A stretch of DNA of 64,000 nt from Bacillota bacterium (GTDB lineage Bacteria; Bacillota; Sulfobacillia; Sulfobacillales; Sulfobacillaceae). A model generated the notes under the pieces. The model saw only the letters and a program-made list of their open reading frames with translations. It had not been told where the DNA came from and did no database searches. How positions within the stretch are numbered: position 1 is the first letter of the stretch; each line of letters opens with the position of its first letter. Below, in pieces: positions 22,769 to 29,995 of this stretch. The stretch is from contig JAJZZA010000007.1 of assembly GCA_021797825.1 (NCBI GenBank), positions 1 to 64,000 of the forward strand, written 5' to 3'. The position numbers and the translations under genes were made by a program.

Positions 22769-22797
22769 TTGATTCCTAAGTTTCCCCCTTTTATAAT
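22769..22797 (+). promoter_or_regulatory. Sigma-A promoter of the sugar ABC/TatA operon
   Basis: TTGATT (22769-22774), 17 bases, TATAAT (22792-22797). The -10 box is perfect and the spacer optimal. The start would be near 22804, about 47 bases before the first gene of a ten-gene operon. Confidence 0.75.
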
Positions 22798-22815: not shown

Positions 22816-22850
22816 TGTAGTCTGAATTGTCCGACTTCGGGAGGTATCTT

Positions 22851-23948
22851 GTGTCTGGACTAGCCGTCAACGAGGTAAAGAAATCCTACGGACCGGTTGA
22901 AGCCGTCAAATCGGTGACCTTCACCTTGGAACAAGGCCAATTGATGTGCCTGTTAGGTCCTTCCGGTTGCGGAAAGACAACGACGCTGCGCATGATCGCC
23001 GGTCTGGAATTCCCCGATTCGGGGGACATTCTGTTAGGTGACCGCCGGCTTAATGCGCTGGAACCGCGCGAACGCCGGATTGGGATGGTTTTTCAAGGAC
23101 TGGCCCTATATCCGCACATGACCGCCCTGCAGAATATCGGCTATCCCTTGAAAGTGCGCCGCATGGCCCAGGCGGAAATCGCTACACGAGTCAACGCCAT
23201 CGCGTCCACGCTAGGCATTGCCCATTTACTGGCGCGCAGACCCAGTCAGCTAAGCGGAGGCGAGCAGCAGCGCGTGGCTCTCGCCCGCGCACTGGTGCAA
23301 GAACCGGAACTCTTTTTGTTGGACGAACCACTTTCGGCGCTCGATGCCAAGGTGCGCACGGTTATGCGGGAAGAGATCCGAAATGTCCAAAAGCGGCTCA
23401 ATATCACCACCGTGCTGGTCAGCCATGACCAACTCGACGCGCTCAGCATGGCAGACATGATTGCCGTGATGAAGGACGGTCAAGTCCAACAACTGGGATC
23501 GCCGCACGATATTTACTATCAACCCGCCAACACGTTTGTGGCTCAATTCATCGGTGAACCGACCATGAACCTGCTTGACGGCGAGCTGGGATCCACCGGC
23601 CATCTAACGTTTCTTGGCCACACCATTTCAGTCGGCGCCGCGCGCAGCCAATCCGAACCGGTCGTGGTGGGGTTGCGCCCCCAGGACTTTGTCGCGTTGA
23701 GGCACCCGACTCATGAACTGCTGGAGTTCGAGGGGAAGATCGTTTCAACCCAACCCCAAGGCCCGGACATCGTCATGCGCATTCTCTTGCGCGACAACAC
23801 CCTCGTCGTCCTATTGCCCTGGACACATCCATGGTCGGAGGGGGACACTATCCGGTTAGGATTTCCTTCGGTCCACATGCACCTCTTCAACCGGTACAGC
23901 GGAGAACGCCTGCCGGAGTCACCGAACGCACTGAGAGAGGAAGGATAA
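22851..23948 (+). CDS. Sugar ABC transporter ATPase, MsmK/UgpC-like
   Basis: A 365-residue ATPase of the carbohydrate uptake (CUT1) class. Walker A GPSGCGKTTT, Q-loop MVFQGLALYPHM, signature LSGGEQQRVALARAL, Walker B LFLLDEPLSALDA and H-loop VSHDQLDAL are all intact. They are followed by a C-terminal OB/TOBE regulatory region of about 110 residues. GTG 22851 is chosen because GGGAGG lies six bases before it; the frame itself opens at TTG 22827. It is the first gene of the operon and would power the two permeases downstream. Confidence 0.9.
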   Translation: MSGLAVNEVKKSYGPVEAVKSVTFTLEQGQLMCLLGPSGCGKTTTLRMIAGLEFPDSGDILLGDRRLNALEPRERRIGMVFQGLALYPHMTALQNIGYPLKVRRMAQAEIATRVNAIASTLGIAHLLARRPSQLSGGEQQRVALARALVQEPELFLLDEPLSALDAKVRTVMREEIRNVQKRLNITTVLVSHDQLDALSMADMIAVMKDGQVQQLGSPHDIYYQPANTFVAQFIGEPTMNLLDGELGSTGHLTFLGHTISVGAARSQSEPVVVGLRPQDFVALRHPTHELLEFEGKIVSTQPQGPDIVMRILLRDNTLVVLLPWTHPWSEGDTIRLGFPSVHMHLFNRYSGERLPESPNALREEG

Positions 23949-23949
23949 C

Positions 23950-25407
23950 GTGGAAACCAAGAACAACGGCATCACTCGCCGGGATCTGATGAAAACGGCG
24001 GTCGTCGCGGGTTCAGCCCTGGTCGGGGGCGGAGTGCTGACAGGCCTGGCGGGCTGCGGCACCTCGTCCACCCCTGCGGCATCGAGCAGCGGCAAAGTCT
24101 CCGCTCCCACCGGAACCGGCACGGTTGCCATCGAGTGCGACGCAGGACAAAACGAGGCGCCTTTTCAATGGTTCTCCTCGGCCCTCAAAACGAAATACGG
24201 GGCCGAAGTCAACATGATCGGGCTGCCCTTCGTCGGCCAATATCAACGGCTGGTCACCGAGTTGGTGGCGCGTTCCGCAGTCTACGACCTGATGGTATTC
24301 CCGCCGCAGTTCATGGGCGATTTCGTCGCCAAGGGCTTTTTGGAACCGTTGGACCAATACACCAGTTTAGTCAACCCCAATTTGCCGGACGTGATGCCGG
24401 CCTACCGCGACCCCAACCTGATGCGCAATGGCAAGCTCTACGCGCTGCCCTATGACGGTGACATTCTCATGTTGACTTACCGCCAGGATTTGTTCTCCGA
24501 TCCCACCGAGCAAGCCAACTTCCAGAAAAAGTACGGACGGCCGTTGGCGGTTCCGACCACCTGGGACGAATTTATTCAGGTCGCCCAATTTTTTACCCGT
24601 CCCCCGCACCTGTACGGCGCCGGAATTTACGGCCAACGCGGATTCTGCTATGCCTGGTTCGTTAATATCATGGCGGCTTATGGCGGCAAGTGGTTCGACT
24701 CTTCGATGAACGCCACCGTCAACTCGCCGGCGGGCGTCACCGCGCTCACCAAGCTGCTGGAGATTGCCAACTATTGCCCGCCTGGGGTTCTGCAAACCGG
24801 ATACCCGCAGTTGAACCAAATTTTTCTGGACGGCTCCACCGCGATGGTCATCCAGTGGGACGATCTCCCGCTCAAAGTGGACAATCCGGCCATGAGCCAA
24901 GTGGTCGGCAAGGGCAGTTTCGCCCCCTGTCCGGTGCGCAACTATATGCCGTACTCACGCGTCATGGCCGTCTCCGCCTTCTCCAATAACAAAGCGCGCG
25001 CATACGAAGTGGCGGCCTACATGACCCTGGAAGGCTATAAGTATGTCTATGACCCCAACTGCGGCGAGGATCCCTATCGAACCTCGCAGTTGCATGCCAG
25101 TTTGGTCAAGACGCATACCGGTCAGCCGTCGATGCCGGCCGCCCAAGCCAGTGAGTATGTGAACGCGATTAAGGGCTGCATCGCCACCGGCTATCCGGAA
25201 CTGAGCATCCCAGGCGCTCCCCAGTATCTTGATCTGCTGGATTTGTTCGTCAACCAGGCTCTCGCTGGCACCTTGTCCCCCAAGGCCGCCCTCGATTCCG
25301 CGGCGAGCGAATGGGACAGCTTGACGCAATCTCTCGGCGTGTCAAGCCAAACCGCCGCTTACCAAGCGTGGATTACCAGCTTCCGTGAAGCCGGAATCCA
25401 ATATTAG
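23950..25407 (+). CDS. Sugar-binding lipoprotein with twin-arginine signal (SBP family 1)
   Basis: A 485-residue extracellular solute-binding protein of the CUT1 type. The N-terminus carries ITRRDLMK, a twin-arginine motif, then a mild hydrophobic stretch and the lipobox LAGC (Cys at about residue 36), then a Ser/Ala-rich tether. It should therefore leave the cell folded through the Tat system and be lipid-anchored. Later motifs such as GKLYALPYDGDILMLTYRQD and the WDEF region are usual for the family. Start GTG 23950 follows GAGAGGAAGG. Tat export fits with the tatA-like gene at 28801-28965 in the same operon. Confidence 0.88.
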   Translation: METKNNGITRRDLMKTAVVAGSALVGGGVLTGLAGCGTSSTPAASSSGKVSAPTGTGTVAIECDAGQNEAPFQWFSSALKTKYGAEVNMIGLPFVGQYQRLVTELVARSAVYDLMVFPPQFMGDFVAKGFLEPLDQYTSLVNPNLPDVMPAYRDPNLMRNGKLYALPYDGDILMLTYRQDLFSDPTEQANFQKKYGRPLAVPTTWDEFIQVAQFFTRPPHLYGAGIYGQRGFCYAWFVNIMAAYGGKWFDSSMNATVNSPAGVTALTKLLEIANYCPPGVLQTGYPQLNQIFLDGSTAMVIQWDDLPLKVDNPAMSQVVGKGSFAPCPVRNYMPYSRVMAVSAFSNNKARAYEVAAYMTLEGYKYVYDPNCGEDPYRTSQLHASLVKTHTGQPSMPAAQASEYVNAIKGCIATGYPELSIPGAPQYLDLLDLFVNQALAGTLSPKAALDSAASEWDSLTQSLGVSSQTAAYQAWITSFREAGIQY

Positions 25408-26344
25408 CGTCCCCCGGCTCGCGAAGGTGGGCGGGACCCCCCCGCCCACCGCGACCCGGCGCAGGGCCCAAAAGGCAAAACGGTTCGGATGGGGGATGTC
25501 CCTGCCGTTGGCGGTGATTTTGATCGGGCTGAGCATCTACCCTTTGGTCTATTTGCTCAAGACCTCGTTCACCGATTACCAAATGCTCGGCATGCAGCCC
25601 ACGAAATTTGTGGGGTTGTCGAACTACAGCCACTTGTTGACCAGCGGCCTGTTCCGCCATTCGCTGGCGATAACCGGGGCCTTTGCCTTGTCGGCGGCGA
25701 TTCTTCAGATGGGCCTGGGGACGGGGCTGGCGTTCTTGATCCGATCGCTCGGCCGTCGCGCACAAACGGTTTTGGTGCTGTTGCTGATTCCCACCATCAT
25801 TTCGCCTGCCGTGGTCGCCTTTCAATGGGTCCAGCTGTTTAATTATCAATTCGGGCCGGTCGATTACCTCCTCACCCAAATCGGCCTAAAACCGTTGCTT
25901 TGGACCGGAAGCCCGCACCAGGCGCTGGGATCGCTGCTCTTGGTCGACTTCTGGGAATGGACCCCCTTTGTCATGCTGCTGGTGTACGCCGGGCTGCAAT
26001 CGCTGCCCGAGAAGATTTTTGAGGCCTCCGCAATCGACGGCTCCACGCGATTGCAGACGGTTCGGTTCATTACCTTGCCGATGTTAAAGCCGGTCTTGGG
26101 GATTGCCTTGATCTTGCGTTTAATCGGGGTCTTTAAAATGGTCGCCACCATCGCGGTCCTCACCAACGGCGGGCCCGGGATTGCAACCGAAAGCGTTTCG
26201 TACTACACCTACGTTAACGCCTTTACTTATTTCGACATCGGGTATTCGGCCGCACTGGCGTTCGTGCAGCTCATTATCATCATGCTGCTGGTCAAGATCA
26301 TCCTGCGCTTGATGAAACGTCCAGGCGTCCGCACCCTGGCCTGA
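25385..26344 (+). CDS. Sugar ABC permease, MsmF/UgpA-like
   Basis: A 319-residue CUT1 permease. After a basic N-terminus come six predicted helices starting with GMSLPLAVILIGLSIYPLVY, the LKTSFTDYQ loop typical of the family, and the EAA motif EASAIDGSTRLQTVRFITLP. The GTG at 25385 overlaps the binding-protein gene by 23 bases and has no good ribosome site; GTG 25427 is an alternative. It forms a heterodimer with the next gene product. Confidence 0.87.
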   Translation: MKPESNISVPRLAKVGGTPPPTATRRRAQKAKRFGWGMSLPLAVILIGLSIYPLVYLLKTSFTDYQMLGMQPTKFVGLSNYSHLLTSGLFRHSLAITGAFALSAAILQMGLGTGLAFLIRSLGRRAQTVLVLLLIPTIISPAVVAFQWVQLFNYQFGPVDYLLTQIGLKPLLWTGSPHQALGSLLLVDFWEWTPFVMLLVYAGLQSLPEKIFEASAIDGSTRLQTVRFITLPMLKPVLGIALILRLIGVFKMVATIAVLTNGGPGIATESVSYYTYVNAFTYFDIGYSAALAFVQLIIIMLLVKIILRLMKRPGVRTLA

Positions 26345-26371
26345 GAGACTTTCGCGAAAGGAGGGACATCC

Positions 26372-27205
26372 ATGAAACGCATACCCGCTTGGCAACGCCT
26401 GCTGAATTTGGTGCTCGTCGGGATAGCCTTGCTGTTCTTCCTGTTTCCCGTCTACTGGATGATCAACACCGCGTTAAAACCGCCTAACGAGTGGCTGACC
26501 AATCCTCCCATCTTTTTCCCGCACCACATTTATTTGACCAATTTCAGTCAGGCGCTGATCCATTGGGGAGGGTTGAAAGGGCTTTGGGACAGTTTGGTGG
26601 TTTCGGTCGGGGCGACCGCCCTGTCGCTGGTGGCCGGCGTGTTGGGGGCGTACGCCATTGCCCGCTATAACGTGGGCGGCAACAACTTTTCCTTCTTTGT
26701 ATTAAGTGTGCTGTTCTTCCCGCCGGTTGTGGTCAGTATCCCGATGTTCCAGTTCTGGCGCAGCGTCAACCTGATTGATACGTTTCCCGCGATGGTCGTT
26801 CAGTATTCTTCCTTTACGGTGCCGTTTGTCACCTGGATCCTGAAAGGATTTTTCGAGGACCTGGCGATTGAGTTGGAGGAATCGGCCATGGTCAATGGGG
26901 CCACGCGTTGGCAAGCGTTTTGGGATGTCGCGCTGCCCTCGGTTAAAGGATCGGTGGTCGCCACCGCGCTGTTGGCCTTCATCTTTTCTTGGAACGCGTT
27001 CACGTTCGCGGTCATCTTGTCGCAGGGCCACATCACCACCTTGCCCTATATCCTCCCCACGCTAATGGAGGGGCATTATGTGTTGTGGGGCGATATTGCC
27101 GCCATCGCGACGCTGGCGGTGGTCCCCATCGTCGTGCTGGCCTTCGTTTTGCAGCGCTATTTGGTGCGGGGGTTGTCCTTTGGCACCATTCGCGAATCCC
27201 TGTAA
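26372..27205 (+). CDS. Sugar ABC permease, MsmG/UgpE-like
   Basis: A 277-residue CUT1 permease, partner of the previous protein. It shows LFFLFPVYWMINTALKPPNE, the usual first helix and loop, and the EAA motif EESAMVNGATRWQAFWDVAL. The C-terminus (VLQRYLVRGLSFGTIRESL) matches the family end, where GLxxGAVKG is common. AAAGGAGGG precedes ATG 26372. Confidence 0.9.
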   Translation: MKRIPAWQRLLNLVLVGIALLFFLFPVYWMINTALKPPNEWLTNPPIFFPHHIYLTNFSQALIHWGGLKGLWDSLVVSVGATALSLVAGVLGAYAIARYNVGGNNFSFFVLSVLFFPPVVVSIPMFQFWRSVNLIDTFPAMVVQYSSFTVPFVTWILKGFFEDLAIELEESAMVNGATRWQAFWDVALPSVKGSVVATALLAFIFSWNAFTFAVILSQGHITTLPYILPTLMEGHYVLWGDIAAIATLAVVPIVVLAFVLQRYLVRGLSFGTIRESL

Positions 27206-27238
27206 CCTCAACCTAGCCCACGAAAGGAATGACTCGAC

Positions 27239-28012
27239 ATGTCACCAGTTGCTTTGGTCACCGGGGCGGGCTCGGGCATCGGTCAAGCCTCGGCAGTGGT
27301 CCTCGCCCGCCAGGGCTATGCCGTGGCGGTGACCGACCTGCGGGAGGACGCCGCCGCCGCGACCGCCGACCAGATTCTCGACGACGACGGCACCGCCCAG
27401 CCCTATGTCATGGACGTCAGCCGATCCGACTCCGTCACCGCCGCCACCGCAGCCGTCTTTGAGCATTTTGGACGGTTGGATGTTTTGGTCAACAACGCCG
27501 GCATCGTCCTGCAAAAAAACCTGGCGGAGCTGAGCGACGGGGAATGGGACCGCATTCTCGGCACCAATTTAACCGGCGCCTTTTATGCCGCCCGCGCGGC
27601 CATCCCGTACATCCGCCGGGGTCAGCAGGGCGGGCGCATCATTAACATTTCCTCCATCCTGTCAACCGTCACCCGCCCCCTGAACGGACCGTATTCGAGC
27701 AGCAAAGCGGGCATGAACGGGTTTACCCGGGCGCTCGCCTTAGAGGTCGCCAGAGATGGCATCACGGTCAATGCGGTCGCCCCCGGCCACATTTTAACGC
27801 CGCTCACCGTGCCGATGTTTACGCCAGCCATCACCCGGGCATTTGAAGAGCGGATCCCGCTGGGCATGTTGGGTCAAGCCGAGTGGATCGCCGACGTGGT
27901 GGCCTTTTTGGCCAGTCCCCAGGCGCGCTATATCACCGGCCAAGTCATTTTCGTCGACGGCGGCTACAACATCAACGGCGACCTGCCCAATTTGGAATTC
28001 GGCGGACAGTAA
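27239..28012 (+). CDS. SDR-family oxidoreductase
   Basis: A 257-residue short-chain dehydrogenase/reductase with Rossmann motif TGAGSGIG (residues 8-15), NNAGIV, catalytic Ser and Tyr/Lys region (NISSIL; YSSSKAG) and C-terminal GQVIFVDGGYNING. It is expected to oxidise a sugar or polyol with NAD(P). AAAGGAA precedes ATG 27239. Lying directly upstream of an MBL-fold hydrolase related to lactonases, it may make the sugar lactone which that enzyme opens. Confidence 0.88.
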   Translation: MSPVALVTGAGSGIGQASAVVLARQGYAVAVTDLREDAAAATADQILDDDGTAQPYVMDVSRSDSVTAATAAVFEHFGRLDVLVNNAGIVLQKNLAELSDGEWDRILGTNLTGAFYAARAAIPYIRRGQQGGRIINISSILSTVTRPLNGPYSSSKAGMNGFTRALALEVARDGITVNAVAPGHILTPLTVPMFTPAITRAFEERIPLGMLGQAEWIADVVAFLASPQARYITGQVIFVDGGYNINGDLPNLEFGGQ

Positions 28013-28030
28013 GCAAAAAGGGGGGAACCC

Positions 28031-28774
28031 ATGGACACGTGGCAAATTACGGCGCTGGATACCGGATCGTCGGTGATTGAAAAGTCCATCCTGACTTATC
28101 TGTACGACGTGGGCAGCCAGATTCGCATCCCCCGGGTGATGTGGTACATTGCGGGAGCCAAAAAGATCATTGTCGATACCAGCATCGAGTCCGAACAGGT
28201 GGCCACCGATATCATCGGCGAAAACCTGTTTCGTCGTCCCGAACAGGAGCCGCTGGCCGCGCTAAAATGGATTGGCGTGGATCCCGCGGCCATCGACTAT
28301 GTGATTTTTACCCATCTGCACTGGGACCACGCGGGCAACAACCACCTCTTCCCCAATGCCCGCTTTTTGGCGCAGCGCGACGAGGTGCGCTACGCGTACG
28401 CACCCAGCTCATTTTTTGAGAAGTCCTTTCTGTCACCGCAAGGGGGGTTCATTCCGCCCTACCTCAAAGTGCGATTCGATCTCATCGACGGCAATTACGA
28501 GATGCTGCCCGGTCTGGAGCTGGTCAAATGTCCGGGCCACACGCCCGGCTCGCAAGCGATTCGGGTCAAGACCCGCCAGGGATGGCATACCATTACCGGA
28601 GATGCCGTGTTTACCTTCGAAAACCTGGAAAAAATGATTCCCCCGGGGTTTCACGTCAATATTGATGCGTCGCTCGATTCCATGCGCCGCATCGCCGAAA
28701 TTTCCGACGTGGTTCTGCCCTCCCATGATTATAAATTGTTTCCCCAGGACGAGCCGCAGCTTTTTGGCGGATAG
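28031..28774 (+). CDS. Metallo-beta-lactamase-fold hydrolase, lactonase-like
   Basis: A 247-residue MBL-fold enzyme close to the AiiA/AttM lactonase group. The zinc motif is THLHWDHAGNN (HxHxDH), then CPGHTPGS with the next His, GDAVF with the bridging Asp, and SHDYKLF with the last His. Cytoplasmic. In this operon a sugar-lactone substrate is more plausible than an acyl-homoserine lactone signal, but quorum quenching cannot be excluded from sequence. AGGGGGGAA precedes ATG 28031. Confidence 0.85.
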   Translation: MDTWQITALDTGSSVIEKSILTYLYDVGSQIRIPRVMWYIAGAKKIIVDTSIESEQVATDIIGENLFRRPEQEPLAALKWIGVDPAAIDYVIFTHLHWDHAGNNHLFPNARFLAQRDEVRYAYAPSSFFEKSFLSPQGGFIPPYLKVRFDLIDGNYEMLPGLELVKCPGHTPGSQAIRVKTRQGWHTITGDAVFTFENLEKMIPPGFHVNIDASLDSMRRIAEISDVVLPSHDYKLFPQDEPQLFGG

Positions 28775-28800
28775 CACCGACTACGGAGGAGGAACCCATC

Positions 28801-28965
28801 ATGTTCGGCAACCTGATTGACCCCGTGCACATCATTGTCTTGGGGGTCGTGGTGGTCTGGATCTTCGGACCCAAACGTCTGCCGGAGTTAAGCGCCAGTC
28901 TGGGCAAGACCATCCGGCTGTTCAAGCACTCGCTAAAAAATTCGGACCCGGATACCGACGGCTAA
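28801..28965 (+). CDS. tatA: Small TatA-like protein translocase subunit
   Basis: A 54-residue protein with the TatA/B architecture. A short N-terminus (MFGNLIDPVH) precedes one membrane helix (IIVLGVVVVWIFG), the hinge PKRLPELSASLGK, which carries the conserved F-G-P-K-x-L-P motif, then an amphipathic helix ending in a charged tail. CGGAGGAGG precedes the ATG. TatA proteins build the pore of the twin-arginine pathway. Its place in the same operon as a twin-arginine sugar-binding lipoprotein (23950-25407) suggests a substrate-linked paralogue. No tatC is in the window. Confidence 0.88.
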   Translation: MFGNLIDPVHIIVLGVVVVWIFGPKRLPELSASLGKTIRLFKHSLKNSDPDTDG

Positions 28966-28993
28966 CCATGTCAAGCCAACGGGAGGCCTGCTT

Positions 28994-29995
28994 GTGCCAA
29001 CAATTAAAGATGTTGCCAAAATGGCCGGCGTGTCCCCGGCTACGGTTTCGGCGGTGCTGCGCGGCAACAAACGGGTGAGCGACATCTCGCGGGAAAAAGT
29101 TGATGCCGCCATCGCCGCCACCGGATACCGCCCCAATGTGGTCGCCCGCTCCTTGCGGACTCGCCAGACCAGAACGCTGGGACTGATTGTGCCGGATATC
29201 TCCAACCCGTTCTATCCCGAAATTGCCCGGGGGATTGAGCAAACGGCCAGGAGACACGGCTTTGACGTGCTGTTCGCCACCGGCGGGGAGGACTTTGTGC
29301 ACACCCAGCACCTCCTGTGGCATTTCACCGACCGCCAGGTGGACGGCATCATCCTCACCAGCATCGGATTGGACTATCCGCTGTCCGTGGCGGAGTGGGG
29401 TGTACCCATTATCCTGGTCAACCGCAAGTGCCGGGGCTGCACCACGGACTTCATCGGCATCGACAACCGGGCGGCGGCGCGCGACGTGATACACTATTTG
29501 ATTAGCGAAGGCCATCAGGACATCGCGTTCGTGGGCGGCCCGGGCAACTCGAGCGCGAGTCTGGGACGGTTGCAAGGCTATCGCGAAGCCATGCTTGAGG
29601 CCGGGTTGGACCTTTTCGACGACTGGCTCCTGTCCGGACAATTGCGGTACGAAGACGGTGTGCGCGCAGCGCACCGGCTGGTCTCGTCGCGGCGTCGTCC
29701 GACGGCGATCTTTTCCGCCGACGACATGATGGCGCTAGGCATCCTGGACGGACTTGAGCAACGTCATGTAGAGGTGCCGCGGGAGATGTCGGTGGTGGGA
29801 TTTGACGGAATTTGGACCTCATCACTGCACGGGGTGCAACTGACCACGGTCTCCCAACCTCTTTACGAAATGGGCGCACGCAGCACCGAGCAGTTGTTAA
29901 AGCGGCTTGACGGAGATCCTAGTCCGCCGGTAGATGTCCTGTTGGACTACACCCTGGTGATTAGAAAGACCACCGGCCCCGCCCCTCCCCGTTAA
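28994..29995 (+). CDS. LacI-family transcriptional regulator
   Basis: A 333-residue LacI/GalR regulator. The helix-turn-helix TIKDVAKMAGVSPATVSAVL leads into the hinge YRPNVVARSLRTRQ. The effector domain carries LGLIVPDISNPFYPEIARG, AIFSADDMMALGIL and VVGFDGIWTSSLHGVQLTTV. Start GTG 28994 follows GGGAGG. Located within the sugar ABC/TatA operon, it likely responds to the imported sugar and acts at the promoter at 22769-22815. Confidence 0.9.
   Translation: MPTIKDVAKMAGVSPATVSAVLRGNKRVSDISREKVDAAIAATGYRPNVVARSLRTRQTRTLGLIVPDISNPFYPEIARGIEQTARRHGFDVLFATGGEDFVHTQHLLWHFTDRQVDGIILTSIGLDYPLSVAEWGVPIILVNRKCRGCTTDFIGIDNRAAARDVIHYLISEGHQDIAFVGGPGNSSASLGRLQGYREAMLEAGLDLFDDWLLSGQLRYEDGVRAAHRLVSSRRRPTAIFSADDMMALGILDGLEQRHVEVPREMSVVGFDGIWTSSLHGVQLTTVSQPLYEMGARSTEQLLKRLDGDPSPPVDVLLDYTLVIRKTTGPAPPR

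Follow-up and report, generated by a model that had tools for sequence, protein, structure and literature searches.

Co-expression of some Tat cargoes with parts of the translocase has been described previously (PMC6708511). In Bacillus subtilis, TatAdCd is co-expressed with the phosphodiesterase PhoD, its only known cargo (PMC6708511), and the TatAd-TatCd/PhoD system (PMC6708511; PMC3827258) resembles the locus analyzed here in that Tat components accompany a particular cargo. However, the PhoD gene has tatA as well as tatC linked to it, whereas the operon described below contains tatA alone, and its cargo is the solute-binding protein (SBP) of a sugar ABC transporter. A second comparable case is the tatA/tatC linked to EfeUOB in Bacillales, where tatA adjoins the gene of a Tat cargo (EfeB) within an uptake operon (PMC3827258). 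EfeB is a haem peroxidase carrying a cofactor, which is the usual rationale for Tat export, while our SBP is apparently cofactor-free. On a Priestia megaterium plasmid we also observed efeUOB followed by an orphan tatA (L130, 5950-6153), i.e. another uptake operon with a cargo-linked tatA. The third case is the [NiFe]-hydrogenase operon of Sulfobacillus acidophilus, which includes an orphan tatA (Sulac_3615) coding for the closest TatA sequence found; its cargo is cofactor-loaded, unlike the SBP studied here. This tatA lies on the S. acidophilus plasmid CP003180 (L090, 12001-12192), between hypE and a gene preceding that of the hydrogenase small subunit.

Tat signals on lipoproteins and SBPs are also known. 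Tat lipoproteins exist in Streptomyces (PMC6022935), and Tat is the main export route of haloarchaea (PMC2910488). We found SRRQF Tat signals in two SBPs of Chloroflexota (L115, L117; 26–28% identity to the SBP of this study), with no tatA in the loci read. The expectation of the sequence-only reading that SBPs normally use Sec is therefore correct for the order analyzed here, which comprises Sulfobacillus and related bacteria, but does not extend to these Chloroflexota proteins of the same family. In comparison with Chloroflexota, Streptomyces and haloarchaea, the Tat-type SBP of the window (the whole 64,000-nucleotide stretch that was analyzed) is a rare exception, and it is encoded beside tatA.

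The SBP gene belongs to a sugar-uptake operon (positions 22827-29995), which encodes an ATPase, the SBP, two permeases, a short-chain dehydrogenase (SDR), a metallo-beta-lactamase-fold (MBL) hydrolase, TatA and a LacI-family regulator, all on the + strand (Table 1). The operon had initially been delimited as 23950-28965; the SBP and TatA ORFs are placed as in that proposal, but the operon is longer, with the ATPase gene at its 5' end and the regulator at its 3' end. Neighboring genes are separated by 1–34 bp, or overlap by 23 bp, and are presumably co-transcribed. In the scan of the region, neither of the gaps flanking tatA, on the MBL side or on the regulator side, contained a terminator-like match; the number of such matches elsewhere in the region was close to the shuffled background. 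Sites resembling the promoter candidate were not clearly more frequent in the region than in shuffled sequences, so its position is the sole argument in its favor.

Table 1. Features of the sugar-uptake operon (positions within the window).
Feature	Position	Strand	Supporting data
Sigma-70-like promoter candidate, TTGATT-17-TATAAT	22769..22797	+	10/12 consensus matches; ~30 bp 5' of the ATPase gene
ABC transporter ATPase, UgpC/MalK type, OB/TOBE domains	22827..23948	+	PF00005 2.6e-36, PF17912, PF08402; best NCBIfam model UgpC, below cut-off
Solute-binding lipoprotein (SBP), Tat signal TRRDLMK, lipobox LAGC	23950..25407	+	PF01547 2.8e-29, PF13416; motif scans; PDB profile relatives are sugar-binding proteins
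ABC permease 1, UgpA/GlcT type	25385..26344	+	PF00528 1.4e-13
ABC permease 2, GlcU/MalG type	26372..27205	+	PF00528 5.3e-15
Short-chain dehydrogenase (SDR)	27239..28012	+	PF13561 1.9e-66; passes cut-offs of NF005559 (glucose 1-dehydrogenase subfamily) and NF009466 (FabG subfamily)
Metallo-beta-lactamase-fold (MBL) hydrolase, lactonase-like	28031..28774	+	PF00753 2.1e-20; closest NCBIfam models 4-pyridoxolactonase and AHL lactonases, all far under cut-off
Accessory TatA, 54 aa	28801..28965	+	PF02416 53.9 bits; one of the genome's three tatA
LacI-family regulator, probable operon regulator	28994..29995	+	PF00356, PF00532, PF13377

The domain composition (PF01547, two PF00528 permeases, and PF00005 with PF17912/PF08402) is that of a CUT1-type sugar ABC importer of the MalEFGK/UgpBAEC kind. 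The SDR probably acts on the imported sugar and, judging by family membership, the presence of the SDR together with the lactonase-like hydrolase suggests that the sugar may be oxidized to a lactone and then to an acid. The GC content of the operon (57–59%) barely differs from that of the surroundings (59–64%), so base composition gives no hint of a recent foreign origin.

The SBP is a 485-aa protein of family 1 (MalE-like) with the N-terminus VETKNNGITRRDLMKTAVVAGSALVGGGVLTGLAGC. Motif scans confirmed the Tat lipoprotein signal that had been proposed for it: a full [ST]RRxx[LM]K-type motif is followed by a hydrophobic stretch and a lipobox cysteine (TRRDLMK...LAGC). It is the sole protein with such an N-terminus among the 111 ORFs of at least 150 aa in the 64-kb window, and the only one of the eight PF01547 proteins of the genome with a Tat motif. 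One of the other seven, encoded on contig C10, carries SRRFPLV, which lies outside the Tat consensus. Based on these features, we infer that the SBP is probably exported by Tat.

The 54-residue protein encoded in the same operon proved to be a genuine TatA, as had been claimed, and its gene is tightly spaced and on the same strand. Its PF02416 score is well above the cut-off of 21 bits, and it retains the single N-terminal membrane helix, the FGP hinge (FGPKRLPEL) and the amphipathic helix; with the NCBIfam model TIGR01411 it scored 53.1 bits, slightly below the cut-off of 53.9. The genome (3.59 Mb in 156 contigs, 97% complete) contains three tatA genes (contigs C74, C119 and C65, the last being the contig of the window) and two tatC genes (C145 and C119), and thus the operon copy is not the only tatA, the situation that would have refuted the initial proposal. 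The C74 gene is the housekeeping one, since its GATase-tatA-cysK arrangement is present in nearly all of the family genomes read. The operon itself contains no tatC, and a complete dedicated translocase, with tatA and tatC both linked to the cargo as in PhoD-TatAdCd, is not present. With just three tatA genes in 3.59 Mb, the occurrence of one of them in the operon by chance would be, by our estimate, a ~1% event.

The explanation that we favor, and consider probable although by no means certain, is that this is a LacI-regulated operon for sugar uptake and oxidation, whose SBP is exported in a folded state via Tat, using a co-expressed accessory TatA and a TatC encoded elsewhere. The SBP would fold in the cytoplasm, its twin-arginine signal would be recognized by TatC from contig C145 or C119, and it would cross the membrane with the help of TatA. 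TatA is usually the most abundant Tat component. Induction of the operon would enlarge the TatA pool, by which export capacity would rise together with the highly expressed SBP, and the transporter could move between genomes carrying an export part suited to its SBP. In this model the operon TatA presumably acts on this particular SBP; the sugar substrate and the capacity-matching rationale are likewise our interpretation of the gene content. The repetition of this pairing with unrelated uptake systems in related bacteria suggests that the transporter and its export capacity are inherited and induced together.

The main alternative is that the general Tat system exports the SBP and that the operon tatA is a general-purpose duplicate, or a passenger of horizontal transfer, whose linkage is functionally meaningless for the SBP. 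We consider this rather unlikely, but several observations fit it, among them the lack of an accompanying tatC. Across 42 genomes of the order, we listed all 72 tatA genes and read 62 tatA neighborhoods, including those of the genome's two other copies. Accessory tatA genes were found (i) in hydrogenase operons, (ii) in molybdoenzyme operons, (iii) in ABC uptake operons, and (iv) in two recurring and a few single loci without evident cargo. The existence of accessory tatA genes away from any obvious Tat substrate indicates that tatA placement is not always substrate-driven, in agreement with the duplicate or passenger explanation.

The ABC uptake operons point in the opposite direction. S. acidophilus DSM 10332 (G003) encodes an SBP with an SRRGLLK motif, a permease, an ATPase and TatA together with arabinose-type genes. 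In G045, the genes of an SBP (SRRSLLK), a permease, an ATPase and TatA are accompanied by those of an MBL hydrolase and an SDR and by an enolase-superfamily-like gene; the downstream MBL hydrolase and SDR genes make this locus similar to the operon of the window. G015 carries a glycerol-type system (SBP with SRRTMLK, permeases, ATPase, tatA, and glycerol-phosphate dehydrogenase-like genes, judged by eye), and the same ATPase-tatA order occurs in G047, where the contig begins before the SBP gene. In G012, tatA is followed by the genes of an SBP (SRRELLK) and two permeases. The arabinose SBP of G007 (TRRGLIK) has no linked tatA, but tatC lies immediately past the regulator gene. Inspection of the G007 region between the ATPase gene and araB for a hidden tatA revealed none; the tatC beyond the regulator (contig C107; L250, 8579-9445) is an extra copy beside this arabinose-type operon with a Tat-signal SBP.

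The Tat-signal SBPs encoded beside tat genes represent four families (PF01547, PF13407, PF13343 and PF13416) and share only the signal region, with the exception of three RbsB-type orthologues (72–80% identity). The cases of G003, G045, G015, G047 and G012 were first found from their tatA genes, and only the RbsB-type set was re-drawn regardless of tatA (PF13407 search, E <1e-30; 63 SBPs with readable N-termini). In this set, a tat gene (tatA or tatC) lies within 3 kb of all three Tat-type SBPs and of none of the others (p ~2.5e-5, a value which overstates independence, because the three are orthologues and not separate events); one Sec-type SBP (G026) is encoded 3.1 kb from tatC. The recurrence across four SBP families is thus a stronger argument than this association test. 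A tat gene repeatedly placed beside unrelated Tat-type SBPs and absent beside Sec-type ones is difficult to explain by random placement, and the fact that the genome holds only three tatA genes also speaks against the duplicate or passenger explanation.

The relationships of the TatA proteins were analyzed in a tree of 62 rows and 55 columns, which was poorly resolved. The TatA of the operon clusters with those linked to hydrogenases and to glycerol ABC systems (95/83), apart from the housekeeping clade, and its closest relative found is the S. acidophilus plasmid copy (63% identity over 46 residues), so it may have been recruited from another system, as the duplicate or passenger explanation would have it. 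The TatA of G012 looks derived from the housekeeping copy. A single origin of all ABC-linked TatAs was rejected (AU p 0.002, with long branches calling for caution in reading this value). The ABC-linked TatAs thus do not form one clade, which indicates that the association of tatA with ABC operons probably arose more than once.

A further alternative, which we regard as improbable, is that the SBP is actually exported as a Sec lipoprotein, its RR motif being incidental, and that tatA is unrelated to it. At 1.96, its signal is about as hydrophobic as those of the sampled Sec lipoproteins (mean 2.01), which makes Sec export possible; as a Sec/Tat discriminator this parameter was uninformative and was dropped. 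In the sample of 151 distinct SBPs from the order, however, 101 are Sec-type with a recognizable lipobox, and none of these carries the strict Tat motif. Moreover, over 41 residues the signal region shares 56% identity with that of an RbsB-type SBP of G007, although the mature parts are unrelated, which argues for a conserved Tat signal module.

The nearest SBP homologues, which have Sec-type signals, fit the Sec alternative better. They were found outside the order (38–41% identity) in Bacillota, Verrucomicrobiota and Caldatribacterium/Atribacteria, and no tatA is present in their loci; the SBP fold therefore does not need Tat. The best identity to the SBP was 31% among 41 relatives and 41% among 399 phylum genomes, and two scans of GTDB representatives likewise yielded no close homologue. 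A plasmid search returned proteins of ≤30% identity, mostly from rhizobia, with no tatA at the two loci read. The exact SBP-tatA pair, whose conservation in relatives had been suggested as a check, is thus not conserved, while the pattern is. The idea of an export capacity adjusted to this substrate is partly supported: the extra tatA copy and the recurrent pairing are as expected, but the specific pair is not maintained. That the SBP uses Tat because its folding requires a cofactor, or because it needs shielding from the acidic outside, as was also proposed, is highly improbable, since, although the host family consists of acidophiles and Tat carries folded proteins, neither the protein family, nor any motif, nor the solved relatives (ordinary sugar-binding proteins) indicate a cofactor site, and the genome's other family-1 SBPs, facing the same external pH, have Sec signals.

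Co-expression of the SBP with its accessory TatA therefore remains the explanation that we prefer, and it may be extended, as a tentative proposal only, to the order as a whole. ABC operons of Sulfobacillus-like acidophiles might have been repeatedly and independently rebuilt as portable 'Tat uptake cassettes', each combining a Tat signal on an otherwise Sec-type SBP with a cargo-specific TatA that uses a shared TatC. If this were true, TatA subtypes would carry cargo specificity. To our knowledge, the reason for the presence of several TatA paralogues, and whether cargo specificity resides in TatA or in TatC only, are unsettled questions. An order in which extra tatA genes lie repeatedly beside non-redox, probably cofactor-free SBPs offers a natural test of dosage versus specificity. 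As a practical rule for this order, an ABC operon containing tatA would predict a Tat-exported SBP. Tat-exported SBPs and cargo-linked tatA genes are each already known, but the repeated combination of the two in ABC operons of this order appears to be undescribed, as no description of an SBP-tatA pairing was found in the literature searched.

The survey also revealed other accessory tatA genes. A recurrent one lies beside a beta-ketoacyl-synthase-like gene and lacks an evident Tat cargo (L140, L143, L154, L158 and L161), and the TatA proteins encoded there form a clade of their own (100/99). A second recurrent copy, likewise without evident cargo, occurs near an aldo/keto-reductase-like gene (L152, L157 and L160). 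On contig C119 of the genome analyzed, tatA and tatC flank a molybdopterin oxidoreductase operon (L007, 858-8003); the oxidoreductase has an SRRTF signal and is encoded together with an NrfD-like membrane subunit and one additional subunit. Similar clusters were seen in several genomes of the family.
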